Assembly (NCBI RefSeq): GCF_026163685.1
Contig: NZ_JAOXSR010000005.1
Location: forward strand, 62,001 to 126,000
DNA: 64,000 nucleotides
DNA from: Oerskovia flava
GTDB taxonomy: Bacteria > Actinomycetota > Actinomycetes > Actinomycetales > Cellulomonadaceae
Reading direction: 5' to 3'
This document shows, piece after piece, positions 12,455 to 18,087 of the stretch. Under the pieces are notes generated by a model, which made no database searches, was not told the origin of the DNA, and was given only the letters and a program-made list of their open reading frames with translations. Every line of letters starts with the position of its first letter. The first letter of the stretch is position 1. Made by a program: the position numbers and the translations under genes.

Positions 12455-13279
12455 CTAGGAGGCGCCGCCCACGCTCCGCCCGTCGGCAGGAACCGGTGCG
12501 GCCGGTACCGCGTCGACCGCTCCCCCGTACCGGCGATCACGCCGCGCGTACTCCTCGACCGCCCGCCACAGCGACCGGCGGTCCACCTCGGGCCATGGCT
12601 CGGGCAGGAACACCATCTCGGCGTACGCGGACTGCCACAGCATGAAGTTCGACGTCCGCTGCTCCCCCGAGCTGCGCAGGAACAGGTCGACGTCCGGCAG
12701 GTCGGGCTCGTCGAGGTACTTCGCGACGGTCTTCTCCGTCACCTTGCGCGGGTCCAGGCGCCCGGCTGCCACCTCGCGCGCGATCGCCGCGGCCGCGTCC
12801 GCGATCTCCGCGCGCCCGCCGTAGTTGACGCACATCGTCAGCGTGCACGTGTCGTTGCCCCGGGTCATCTCCTCGGCGATCTCGAGCTCCTTGATCACCG
12901 ACGTCCAGAGCCGCGGCCGTCGCCCGGCCCACCGCACCCGCACGCCCCAGCTGTTCATCTCGTCGCGGCGCCGCCGGATGACGTCCCGGTTGAACCCCAT
13001 GAGGAAGCGCACCTCGTCGGGCGAGCGCTTCCAGTTCTCGGTGGAGAACGCGTACGCCGAGACGTGCGTGACGCCGATCTCGATCGCTCCCGCCACGACG
13101 TCGAGCAGCGCGGCCTCCCCCGCCTCGTGCCCTGCCGTGCGCGGGAGACCTCGCGCGTTCGCCCAGCGTCCGTTGCCGTCCATGACGATCGCCACGTGCC
13201 GGGGGACGAACTGGGCCGGGATGTTCGGCGCTGTCGCACCGGACGGGTGCGGGAACGGTGGGACCACCGACCGTGCCAT
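12455..13279 (-). CDS. uppS: Isoprenyl transferase (undecaprenyl diphosphate synthase type)
   Basis: A cis-prenyltransferase of 274 residues. It elongates allylic diphosphate with isopentenyl units to make the lipid carrier for cell-wall synthesis. Conserved regions: [10 protein letters not shown] (about 31-40, catalytic Asp), [18 protein letters not shown], and [18 protein letters not shown] followed by EMVF near the C-terminus. Actinobacteria often carry two such enzymes with different chain lengths, which sequence alone does not settle. Its ATG overlaps the recO stop (TGATG), so it is translationally coupled to recO. Confidence 0.95.
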
Positions 13280-14049
13280 CAGGCGCCCACCCCCGGCGCG
13301 CCGTCTCGCTCCACCATGCGCAGTGATCGCAACGTTCTCTCCAGGTGATATTGGCTGTACGCGGCCACGAGGCCGCTGGCTTCCTTGCGATGCCGCGCGT
13401 CCGAGGCGTCGGCGACCTCCCACTCCCCCGCGAGCAGGGCGGCGAGCAGGAGGAACGTCTGGGGCGCGGGCGCCGTCGACCCGGGCGGGCGGCAGCGCGA
13501 GCACACGGCGCCACCGAGGGCGACGGAAAAGGCATGGTGCGGCCCGGGCTCCCCGCAGCGCGAGCAGTCGGTGAAGCTCGGCGCCCAGCCGGCGACGGCG
13601 AGCGCGCGCAGCAGGTAGGAGTCCAGCACGAGGTTCGCGTCGTGCGCCCGGTCGGCCAGCGCCCGCAGCGCCCCGGCGAGCAGCCAGAACTGCTGCACGG
13701 TGGGTTCGCCCTCGGCCTCGACCAGCCGGTCGGCGGTCTCCAGCATCGCGGTGCCCGCGGTGTACAGCCCGTAGTCGCCGCAGATCACGCGAGCGTAGGG
13801 ACCGACCGTCTCGACCTGCGTGACCGTGTCGAGAGAGCGACCGACGTGCAGCTGGACGTCGACGAGCATAAAGGGCTCGAGCCGGGCGCCGAAGCGTGAC
13901 GAGGTCCGGCGCACCCCACGACCGACCCCGCGCACCTTGCCGTGCTCGCGGGTGAGGAACGTGATGATGCGGTCGGCCTCGCCCAGCTTCTGCGTGCGCA
14001 GCACGATCGCTTCGTCTCGGTAGAGGACCACGGGTCCATTGTCCGCCAT
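13279..14049 (-). CDS. recO: DNA repair protein RecO
   Basis: A protein of 256 residues of the RecFOR recombination mediator pathway, which helps RecA load onto SSB-coated DNA. The OB-fold N-terminus has [19 protein letters not shown] and [15 protein letters not shown] central zinc-finger CSRCGEPG and CSRCRPPG (two CxxC pairs) is typical of actinobacterial RecO. GAGGTG about nine bases upstream supports the ATG at 14049. The recO-uppS pair is conserved in actinobacteria. It lies 90 bp downstream of leuA and behind a strong terminator, so it probably has its own promoter. Confidence 0.94.
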
Positions 14050-14097
14050 CGCGCCGACACCTCGGTCGGCGCCACACCGGCACCGCCGGGTCGACGA

Positions 14098-14126
14098 AGG
14101 GGCCGCACCGTGACGGTGCGGCCCCT
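14098..14126 (-). terminator. leuA terminator
   Basis: A 13-bp perfect stem (arms 14098-14110 and 14114-14126, AGGGGCCGCACCG) with a TGA loop. It is surrounded by a further GTCGAC/GTCGAC pairing at 14090-14095 and 14130-14135. It begins about 14 nt after the leuA stop. Confidence 0.88.
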
Positions 14127-14139
14127 CCTGTCGACGGAC

Positions 14140-15945
<1,806 letters not shown>

Positions 15946-15964
15946 TCAGCCGGCACACCAGCCA

Positions 15965-16001
15965 CCGCGACGAGGGACCGGCCTAGAGGGCCTCGTCGCG
16001 G
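15965..16001 (-). promoter_or_regulatory. leuA leader hairpin (attenuator candidate)
   Basis: Arms 15965-15975 and 15991-16001 (CCGCGACGAGG / CCTCGTCGCGG) form a perfect 11-bp stem with a 15-nt loop. The upstream arm is inside the last codons of the leader peptide and the stop codon is in the loop. A ribosome stalled at the leucine codons, or one reaching the stop, would therefore change folding. About 50 nt separate it from the leuA start. Confidence 0.7.
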
Positions 16002-16033
16002 CACCGAAGGAGGAGGGTCTGCGTCAGGTGCAC
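15983..16033 (-). CDS. leuL: leuA leader peptide, leucine rich
   Basis: A 16-codon open frame starting with GTG at 16033: MHLTQTLLLRCRDEAL then TAG. Five of 16 residues are leucine, including the run CTC-CTC-CTT. The start lies exactly six bases after TACAGT, so it would be the first codon of a leaderless mRNA. The position upstream of leuA and the leucine run match the attenuation leader peptides described for actinobacterial leuA. The short length makes conservation the only firm proof, but the combination of promoter, leucine run and overlapping hairpin is unlikely to be chance. Confidence 0.8.
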   Translation of the reverse strand: MHLTQTLLLRCRDEAL

Positions 16034-16039
16034 AGACCC

Positions 16040-16045
16040 ACTGTA
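16040..16045 (-). promoter_or_regulatory. -10 box of the leuL-leuA transcript
   Basis: TACAGT on the minus strand, six bases before the GTG of the leader peptide. No good -35 is visible. A 7-bp dyad (16015-16021 / 16033-16039, GGGTCTG/CAGACCC) spans the probable start site and could be an operator. Confidence 0.6.
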
Positions 16046-16104
16046 CCGCGCCCGTGCGGCCGGGTCGCGGGCGTCCGGCGGACGCACCACGACCCGCCCG
16101 CGCG

Positions 16105-18087
16105 CTACCGGCCGCGGGAGCGCAGCGCGGCGTCGACGGCCGGGTCGCCGAGGTTGCCGAGCCAGTCGAGCAGTGCCGGGTACGTCGACGGGTTCGCCGC
16201 GACCTGTGGGCGCAGGTGCGGGGCATCCTGGACGATCTGCGCGAGCACCTCGAGCGGTGTGCCCGGGTCGAGCGCCTGCGCGGCGGAGAAGCCCGCAGGC
16301 TGCGGCTCCTGCGGCTGCGGCTGGTACTGCGGCCCGGCCTGCTGGGGCTGGTACTGCGGCTGGTACTGCTGGGGCTGGTGCTGCGCGGGCTGGTGCTGCG
16401 CGGCAGCAGGCTCCTCGCTGTAGGCCGGCATGACCTGCGTCGCCGGGTCCTCGGACGGCGCCAGACCCGGGCGCGCCGCGTAGCCCGAGACCTCGGGCTG
16501 GACCGGTTGCGGCCCGGTGCCCTGGGGCGCGTACCCGGCCGGGGCGTAGCCCTGACCGGTCGGCGCGTGCTGAGGTGCCTGCGGGTCGTGCTGCTGCGGG
16601 GCGTAGCCGGACGGGTCGTTGCCGACCGGCGCGCCCTGGGGAGCCGGCTCAGGCTTGGGACGGACCGGCTTGGGCGCCGGAGGCTGCCAGACGTACGCGT
16701 TGCGCACCTGCTCGCCGACGGGCGGAAGGTTCTCCGCGAAGTGCGCCCTGACCTCTGGCGGCACCGTGAGCGCGAAGGCCGCCATGAGCGGCAGGCCGAA
16801 CGCGATGAGGACGTGCTCCACGGCGGCGCCCGCGACCAGACCGTTGCCCTGGTCGGCGACCACCACGAGGAGCACCAGGCCGAGCAGCGCCGACAGGCCC
16901 GCCGCGCCGAGTGCGAGCACCCGACCGGCGACCGCGTCTCGCGAGAGCGCACGGCGCGCGACGAGCGCGACACCCGCGACGAGGAGACCGAAGACGAGGC
17001 TCAGCACGACGCCCACCCCGCGCGCACCCTCGACGAGGGCGAGGACGGCGACGACGGCCGCGTACCCGGCGACCACGAGGAGCAGGTCGAACGACCGGAC
17101 GGCGACACCCGTCCACGCCTCGACCGCGGACCCGGACGCCGTCAGCCGGCGCACGGCCGGGGAGGCCGCGATCGCGGCGATGGCCGGGACGAGCACGAGG
17201 CCGAAGCGACCCTCGTGCAGGCTCTCGAAGCGGGGCAGGCTGTCGTCCCCCGAGCCGAGGACGAACGCGACCACGAGGATGATCCCGAGGCCGACGAGCA
17301 CGAGCCGACCGCTCTCCGAGCGACGGACCACACCCAGCAGCGGGAGCCCGACCAGCGCGAGCACGAACACGGCGGACACGAGAGCGTAGAGCACGCCGGC
17401 GAAGCCGAGCGAGTCCCTCGTGAGGAACAGGACGAACGTCACCAGCACGGTGACGACGAGGAGCCCGCCGAGACCCAGCAGGGCGCGGGACCAGGTCCTC
17501 GAGACCGCGCCGTCGAGCTCCTGCGGACCGAGCTCCGCCTCGCGCGGCTGCGCGGCGAGCAAGGAGCCCGCGAGGCCGAGAGCGACACCGGTACCGACCC
17601 AGCCCCACTCGTTGGCGGTCCCGCCGTTGAGCCCGTCGAGCACGAGGTAGACCAAGGCGACGAGCACATAGGGCGCGTTCGCGAACAGCCGTGCGCGCCG
17701 TGTCGTATGGACCGTCCACGAGGCGGGCAGCGCACCGGTGCGGGCCAGGTAGGGCAGCGTCAGCGACAGCAGGGACAGGACCGTGACGAGGACGACCTCG
17801 ATCTTGTCCGAGGACCGGTGCGCGATGTCCCAGGGCAGCGCGAGCGAGACCAGCAGCAGCACGGCGGCCACGCCGTCGCGCACGTAGTCGCCCACCGGGA
17901 CTCCGGCGAACGGCGAGGTCTTCTCGACGGCCGGGTCGGCGCCCTCCCCCGGCTCCTGCTCGGGCGCCGACGTGGACGACGGCGCATCGCCGCTGGTCCG
18001 GACCCTCACCTGCCCGAGTGGCTGATCGGGTTGCTCGGAGGCGGAGGCCCCCTGCGGATCCTCGACCGCTCCGGACTCGTTCGTCAT
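16105..18087 (-). CDS. Polytopic membrane protein with P/Q-rich linker and C-terminal LRV-like domain
   Basis: A protein of 660 residues. Residues 1-60 are acidic and disordered, 70-440 contain about 12 hydrophobic helices, and 450-600 are a Pro/Gln/Tyr-rich linker (QHQPQQYQPQYQPQQ type). The last 50 residues (TPLEVLAQIVQDAPHLRPQV and ALLDWLGNLGDPAVDAAL) match the actinobacterial variant leucine-rich repeat domain, a small helical module usually found on kinases and other membrane proteins. ATG at 18087 is preferred because AGGGAG lies nine bases upstream. No transporter signature was recognised in the membrane part. A scaffold or envelope protein is possible; the function is unknown. Confidence 0.7.
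   Translation of the reverse strand: MTNESGAVEDPQGASASEQPDQPLGQVRVRTSGDAPSSTSAPEQEPGEGADPAVEKTSPFAGVPVGDYVRDGVAAVLLLVSLALPWDIAHRSSDKIEVVLVTVLSLLSLTLPYLARTGALPASWTVHTTRRARLFANAPYVLVALVYLVLDGLNGGTANEWGWVGTGVALGLAGSLLAAQPREAELGPQELDGAVSRTWSRALLGLGGLLVVTVLVTFVLFLTRDSLGFAGVLYALVSAVFVLALVGLPLLGVVRRSESGRLVLVGLGIILVVAFVLGSGDDSLPRFESLHEGRFGLVLVPAIAAIAASPAVRRLTASGSAVEAWTGVAVRSFDLLLVVAGYAAVVAVLALVEGARGVGVVLSLVFGLLVAGVALVARRALSRDAVAGRVLALGAAGLSALLGLVLLVVVADQGNGLVAGAAVEHVLIAFGLPLMAAFALTVPPEVRAHFAENLPPVGEQVRNAYVWQPPAPKPVRPKPEPAPQGAPVGNDPSGYAPQQHDPQAPQHAPTGQGYAPAGYAPQGTGPQPVQPEVSGYAARPGLAPSEDPATQVMPAYSEEPAAAQHQPAQHQPQQYQPQYQPQQAGPQYQPQPQEPQPAGFSAAQALDPGTPLEVLAQIVQDAPHLRPQVAANPSTYPALLDWLGNLGDPAVDAALRSRGR

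Follow-up and report, generated by a model that had tools for sequence, protein, structure and literature searches.

A leucine-codon leader and pseudoknot upstream of leuA in Oerskovia flava is a copy of the actinobacterial LEU element

The leuA leader of Oerskovia flava

The window, a 64,000-nucleotide stretch of Oerskovia flava contig NZ_JAOXSR010000005.1, carries on its minus strand a leuA gene whose product matches TIGR00970 with 858 bits, above the cutoff of 697, and contains the HMGL-like, IPMS_D2 and LeuA_dimer domains (Table 1). Downstream of leuA, the same strand encodes what we take from its sequence to be a RecO-like protein (13279–14049); an undecaprenyl diphosphate synthase-like protein is presumably encoded within 12455–14491. 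The AAGGA Shine–Dalgarno (SD) sequence of leuA stands six bases upstream of its ATG.

Ahead of leuA, the original prediction had placed TACAGT six bases before a 16-codon GTG frame with Leu-Leu-Leu, and an 11-bp stem that starts in the last codons of this frame and holds the stop codon in its loop. All of these features are present, the box and frame at 16045–15983 on the minus strand and the stem (P1) as 11 perfect Watson–Crick pairs, in a layout that is conserved in relatives. The leader peptide reads V H L T Q T L L L R C R D E A L, with Leu at 5 of its 16 codons, and its stop codon lies ~70 nt from the leuA start. Beyond P1, the stem's loop can form a pseudoknot with downstream sequence (GCCGG/CCGGC in the window). 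The span first assigned, 15965–16045, thus held genuine features but was too short, as the element extends to the 3' strand of the pseudoknot and to the leuA SD.

Table 1 Features of the LEU element and leuA in the window
Feature	Coordinates	Strand	Description	Basis
−10 box	16045–16040	−	TACAGT, six bases before the leader GTG	Predicted transcription start at or adjoining the GTG (leaderless)
Leader ORF	16033–15983	−	GTG start at 16033; 16 codons VHLTQTLLLRCRDEAL plus TAG (15985–15983)	Homologous leaders in relatives
Sensor Leu codons	16015–16007	−	CUC CUC CUU	LLL conserved before leuA, leuC and leuA2
SD-complementary part of Leu run	16011–16006	−	UCCUUC, able to pair with the leuA SD	Duplex pairing
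P1 5' arm	16001–15991	−	CCGCGACGAGG, within the last leader codons	Covariation
P1 3' arm	15975–15965	−	CCTCGTCGCGG	Covariation
Pseudoknot 5' strand	15982–15978	−	GCCGG, in the P1 loop directly after the stop	Family permutation test
Pseudoknot 3' strand	15953–15949	−	CCGGC	Family permutation test
leuA SD	15924–15919	−	GAAGGA (AAGGA 15923–15919); partner of the Leu run in a 6-bp base stem	Weak pairing in the window
leuA	15912–14140	−	2-isopropylmalate synthase, 590 aa, ATG at 15912	TIGR00970 and domains

Standard searches gave little at this site. A consensus scan of 15700–16200 returned no terminator-like and no sigma-70-like site, and the best −35 hexamer for this leader matches TTGACA at 3 of 6 positions. 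No Rfam (release 15) family, T-box and leu leaders included, reached its gathering score in the 64-kb window; at a relaxed threshold, the only two matches near the element had E > 2, both to unrelated families. Neither the leader peptide nor the small proteins scored above the cutoff of any Pfam or NCBIfam family. Folding energy was also weak: the whole leader had a z of −0.74, equalled by 41 of 200 shuffles, and the hairpin stretch a z of −2.41, equalled by 3 of 200. We rejected it as a sole criterion because it is too weak to decide in sequence of 73% GC.

The window feature is the LEU element of Actinobacteria, in print since 2005 (Seliverstov, Putzer, Gelfand and Lyubetsky; PMC1262725). 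The consulted parts of that paper describe a leader peptide, a pseudoknot and a base stem formed by the Leu codons and the leuA SD. The window likewise has, immediately before the leuA of an actinobacterium, a leader ORF with consecutive Leu codons, and a pseudoknot between loop and downstream sequence; its base stem is a possible 6-bp pairing that is no better than average. Its −10 box is 6 bp from the start codon, a leaderless spacing, and, as in the 2005 description, no intrinsic terminator with a U-tract was found. The paper differs from our reading in favouring a binding protein, and in those same parts it reports leuA and one transposase. The present analysis goes beyond them with class-wide counts, swap tests, a frame test, and leuC and small-ORF copies with other sensor codons.

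Conservation and distribution of the element

We compared the window with 80 leuA loci of named genomes (81 sources), in which the nearest relatives by LeuA identity are Cellulosimicrobium composti (90%) and Oerskovia merdavium (88%). A script recognised leaders containing three or more Leu codons in a row in 77 of the 81 sources, and 76 of these 77 leaders have TANNNT 6 or 7 nt before the start; the leader frame and its Leu codons, for which the original prediction had proposed an alignment check, therefore persist in relatives. A covariance model placed the element in 79 sources, the other two (L018 and L080) having leuA and no element by this model. TANNNT occurs 6–7 nt before the leader start in 77 of these 79 copies, against 5 of 2,590 ATG or GTG codons in the upstream kilobase, which, at the level of sequence, supports the predicted leaderless layout. 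One of the two exceptions is cut by a contig end (L024) and the other is without a box (L072). The −35 region is poor, matching TTGACA at four or more positions in 18 of 77 cases. In a wider set, the box lies at 4–8 nt in 169 of 209 model matches, including six later dropped as false, none of which has a box. Because relatives share the element and the box keeps its spacing, we consider it more than a chance arrangement, a point for which folding alone was weak evidence.

For further tests, 211 matches were reduced to 209 by dropping two weak antisense matches (L038 and L048), and to 203 by rejecting as elements L203–L208, model matches below 31 bits with no stop in the loop and frames that run on. 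These 203 copies are a chosen set, comprising 79 of the 81 named-search sources and the best or second survey matches, and not a random sample.

P1 covaries in the leuA leaders of relatives, as an alignment had been expected to reveal. In a plain MAFFT alignment (A2), 96.2% of P1 cells are paired, with 25 two-sided changes compared with 5.2 in shuffles and a covariation score beyond 500 of 500 shuffles; two of the five measures on A2 did not exceed shuffles at the 1-in-100 level (22 of 500 for pairs with two-sided changes and 143 of 500 for pair types). A wider, model-fitted alignment (A3) gave 98.3% paired cells and 69 two-sided changes compared with 21.4. These changes fall in codons that encode the peptide (for example, GAC/GTC to GGC/GCC, and CAGC/GCTG). 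The pseudoknot strands vary together as well, appearing elsewhere as GGGCC/GGCCC, GACCGGC/GCCGGTC, TCAGCC/GGCTGA, GCCGTC/GACGGC and others, and among 170 unique loops their mean complementarity of 16.42 exceeded the permuted value of 13.87, with 0 of 2,000 permutations reaching it.

The position of the stop codon is equally constrained. The first in-frame stop after the sensor codons lies inside the P1 loop, whose median length is 17 nt, in 203 of 203 copies, compared with 6 and 2 of 203 for the other two frames, so that leader frame and fold are bound together. Comparison of sequences thus establishes the conserved layout, the covariation of P1 and the pseudoknot, and the frame-specific stop. 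By every comparative test used, the feature in the window is real and functional.

Most of the class genomes sampled carry the element, which would control the committed step of the leucine pathway in bacteria of industrial use and in antibiotic producers. With model R2, which was built partly from genomes surveyed afterwards, 374 of 394 sampled class genomes have a match at E ≤ 0.01, a count that is slightly high because survey hits at E 0.001–0.01 include false ones; matches extend to 348 of 360 high-quality genomes and to 131 of 138 genera, and, on our reading of the result table, the best E is below 5e-5 in all but five of the matching genomes. The order survey with R2 found matches in 129 of 149 genomes. 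At the level of the phylum, R2 at E ≤ 0.001 matched 48 of 396 genomes, 10 of them outside the class, and the first model, R1, matched 49 of 396 at E ≤ 0.01. Good LEU elements (L097–L100, L106 and L115; families f17 and f32) were seen in genomes labelled outside the class and within the phylum. In the genome of O. flava itself, R1 and R2 each found one strong copy (next-best E of 0.026 and 0.034); five weak R1 places inspected there had no layout of leader and hairpin before a gene, and a plasmid collection yielded no match to the element.

Copies before other genes

Most of the 203 copies precede leuA (162) or a second leuA-type gene (9), followed by leuC (11), leuB (6), a LeuA_dimer-like ORF (2) and unassigned genes (13). 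The sensor is LLL in 179 of the 182 copies before leuA, leuC or leuA2. All 11 leuC copies belong to one family, f5; they have Leu-run leaders and stand as a second copy besides the leuA one (L119–L123, L156, L167, L181, L196, L197 and L225). At the two LeuA_dimer-like loci, L133 and L137, the sensors are LLV and LVV, and the short downstream ORFs resemble the allosteric domain of LeuA alone (PF08502, 2.4e-6 for L137, and 0.053, below the cutoff, for L133).

In the leuB cases, a short conserved ORF (..ARQALQESMDLRDQG..) lies between the element and leuB. This small ORF has 20–41 residues of the type ..QES/AMDRRDNG.., has no assigned function and precedes leuB in several genomes. Elements with the small ORF were seen at L131/L247, L134/L236, L198, L199, L200, L231/L237 and L234/L240, and further at L238, L239, L241–L243, L256, L259–L262 and L264; L135 has no recognisable small ORF of the conserved kind. 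At E ≤ 0.01, a profile of the small ORF matched 66 of the 246 genomes searched in the class, in many cases weakly, and gave no match in the O. flava genome (best E, 0.27). R2 places an element upstream of the small ORF in 15 of the 30 best loci. Together with four further loci, these provide 19 elements, none of which has an LLL sensor: VRIL occurs in nine and IFVL in three, and VLIL, ALIL, LVIL, LVVI, VVIL, VLLI and ALII occur once each. A −10 box at 5–8 nt is found in only 4 of the 19, and pairing of sensor and SD is marginal (47 of 2,000 permutations as good; n = 18). Small-ORF homologues were also seen without an R2 element (L248–L255, L257 and L258), with a conserved promoter-like stretch, CTCCATATGCTAGGACGACCGAGTAAATC or close to it, just upstream. 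Our limited literature search found no papers on leuC or leuCD leaders or on the small-ORF copies.

Copies with other sensor codons would be natural sensor swaps, and as such they argue for translation of the leader over recognition by a binding protein.

Leucine codons, SD pairing and mechanism

A run of CUY codons resembles the anti-SD of 16S rRNA. Among 193 copies before leuA, leuC, leuA2 or an unassigned gene, the third sensor codon is CUU in 176 and CUC in 17, and CUG is found in 0 of 193 at the third codon, 5 at the second and 35 at the first. CUU accounts for 5 of the 246 Leu codons in five ORFs of the window. Keeping CUU and excluding CUG at the third codon is the wobble constraint expected of RNA pairing, although CUU could be kept for decoding speed instead.

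We tested this pairing with leuA starts chosen by a script that prefers strong in-frame SDs. Across 177 unique copies, the duplex of the Leu run with its own SD reached −12.28 kcal/mol compared with −10.94 in permutations, none of 2,000 of which did as well, and family-wide complementarity of the Leu run and the SD is established to this extent. Swap tests with one copy per group were repeated in 20 draws, and with either 116 or 65 groups no draw had an equally good permutation among its 500. With 15 broad groups, a median of 60 and a maximum of 136 of 500 permutations were as good; when swaps were confined to groups, none of 500 did as well at two clustering levels, but 60 of 500 did at the tightest level. 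Shared ancestry may therefore inflate the result.

In folding without the pseudoknot, masking the first sensor codon with a ribosome raised median SD accessibility from 0.33 to 0.49, with a rise in 134 of 176 loci; the comparison masks gave 0.37 with the ribosome at the stop and 0.38 at the start. The window itself is less telling. Its base stem (UCCUUC/GAAGGA) has an average duplex of −12.4, 58 of 177 SDs would bind its Leu run better, and masking the Leu run did not raise SD accessibility (0.635 to 0.611, folded without the pseudoknot). Release of the SD is thus a likely output for the family and is moderately supported for the window.

The model that best fits these data, to which we assign a probability of roughly 0.6, is that the LEU element is a leaderless, ribosome-mediated translational attenuator whose Leu codons double as an anti-SD. 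The message would probably start at the leader GTG, with a ribosome loading directly on its 5' end and reading the three Leu codons. In the OFF state, P1 and the pseudoknot would form a compact fold, closed by pairing of the pyrimidine-rich Leu run with the purine-rich leuA SD. Under a shortage of charged Leu-tRNA, a ribosome stalled at the Leu codons would occupy the run and free the SD (ON), while P1 and the pseudoknot stayed folded immediately in front of that ribosome. With ample leucine, the ribosome would reach the stop in the P1 loop and depart, and the run could retake the SD. The Leu codons would then be sensor and anti-SD at once. We infer the transcription start, the stalling and the control at the level of translation from the conserved arrangement, for which leucine sensing by a ribosome is the most likely explanation. 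The original prediction of ribosome-mediated attenuation accordingly survives as the best account of the layout; the pseudoknot and the stem between Leu codons and SD were absent from it.

The leading alternative, which we consider unlikely, is that ribosomes translating the leader and leuA protect the RNA, and that plentiful leucine leaves an untranslated stretch on which Rho terminates. A similar route was suggested for mycobacterial cys leaders, according to the consulted parts of PMC1262725, no intrinsic terminator lies in 15700–16200, and blockade of the SD could itself expose RNA to Rho. However, the distance from leader stop to leuA start leaves Rho little room, and Rho alone explains neither the complementarity of the Leu run and the SD nor the wobble constraint.

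The trp, his and leu attenuators of proteobacteria combine an SD-led leader with an intrinsic terminator. They share with the proposed mechanism the stalling of ribosomes on end-product codons and differ in both of these parts. Classical attenuation of transcription at leuA, with an intrinsic terminator competing with P1, would suit a Leu-run leader peptide that overlaps a strong hairpin, and leuL is described as a transcriptional attenuator in reviews on C. glutamicum (PMC8709942, as excerpted). We nonetheless find it improbable. No terminator was found in 15700–16200, in keeping with the missing U-tract of the original prediction. Across the family, five or more T occur in the 8-mer right after P1 in 21 of 203 copies, and 1 of 203 has six T within eight positions no more than 60 nt beyond the stop; the 21 T-rich copies also weigh somewhat against translational control. 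The leuL1 leader of Streptomyces lividans is likewise described without a terminator in the available text.

Equally improbable in our view is the proposal of 2005 that the fold binds a regulatory protein, of the ML1624 helicase type, and that the peptide is incidental. It drew on a phylogenetic profile and on Streptomyces coelicolor mutants: PMC1262725 states in its Background, citing Craster et al. 1999, that the effects of mutating the S. coelicolor leuA leader did not fit classical attenuation. According to its Conclusion, mutations in the Leu codons were without influence on regulation, and the paper favoured a binding protein because these mutants were unlike those of classical attenuators. 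Both statements also count against our preferred model. A protein site, however, needs no stop in the P1 loop of every copy and in one frame only, no −10 box set on the leader start and no sensor codons that change with the downstream gene. Constraint acts on the frame, the stop position, the promoter spacing and the identity of the sensor alike, which makes sensing by a ribosome, on comparative grounds, better supported than a binding protein. A double role of the Leu codons as sensor and anti-SD would also explain why Streptomyces Leu-codon mutants do not resemble classical attenuator mutants.

A pseudoknot just downstream occurs at some frameshift sites, and one lies just downstream of the CUU codon here, but programmed frameshifting from the leader into leuA is very improbable on phase, as the spacing between the leader stop and the chosen leuA start takes all three phases (65, 69 and 88 nt among others).

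More tentatively, and at a little under even odds, translational attenuation by the Leu codons may be one case of a programmable leaderless attenuator found across the class, in which the sensor is the anti-SD and its codons are exchanged with the downstream gene (LLL before leuA and leuC; Val- and Ile-containing codons or Phe-Val-Leu before the small ORF). If the double role is true, the two roles should be separable by synonymous changes.

Comparable leaders are known from other genera. Canestrari (2020) reportedly described poly-Cys leaderless sORF attenuators of mycobacteria, and a C. glutamicum leuL is said, by papers citing it, to have been reported by Neshat in 2014. The mycobacterial attenuators also have a leaderless short ORF read as an amino-acid sensor, but for cysteine, and no LEU fold is reported in the material consulted. 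Excerpts of the corynebacterial literature cover leuL (PMC4046766, PMC3890552, PMC5784534, PMC8709942 and PMC6892785), with leuL transcripts and a leuA response in C. glutamicum (PMC4046766 and PMC6892785); the consulted portions of PMC13236596 and PMC9094748 do not treat leuA. Like the window, C. glutamicum has a short Leu-rich leader before leuA, as does S. lividans TK24, whose leuL1 was described in 2021 as a leaderless leuA leader with no Rho-independent terminator (PMC8079986, in part). Both differ in genus and in having mapped transcription starts, which in the window are predicted. The S. lividans leuL1 sequence, MRFGLLLLSCRGEGL, equals the leaders that we found in L114 and L116.
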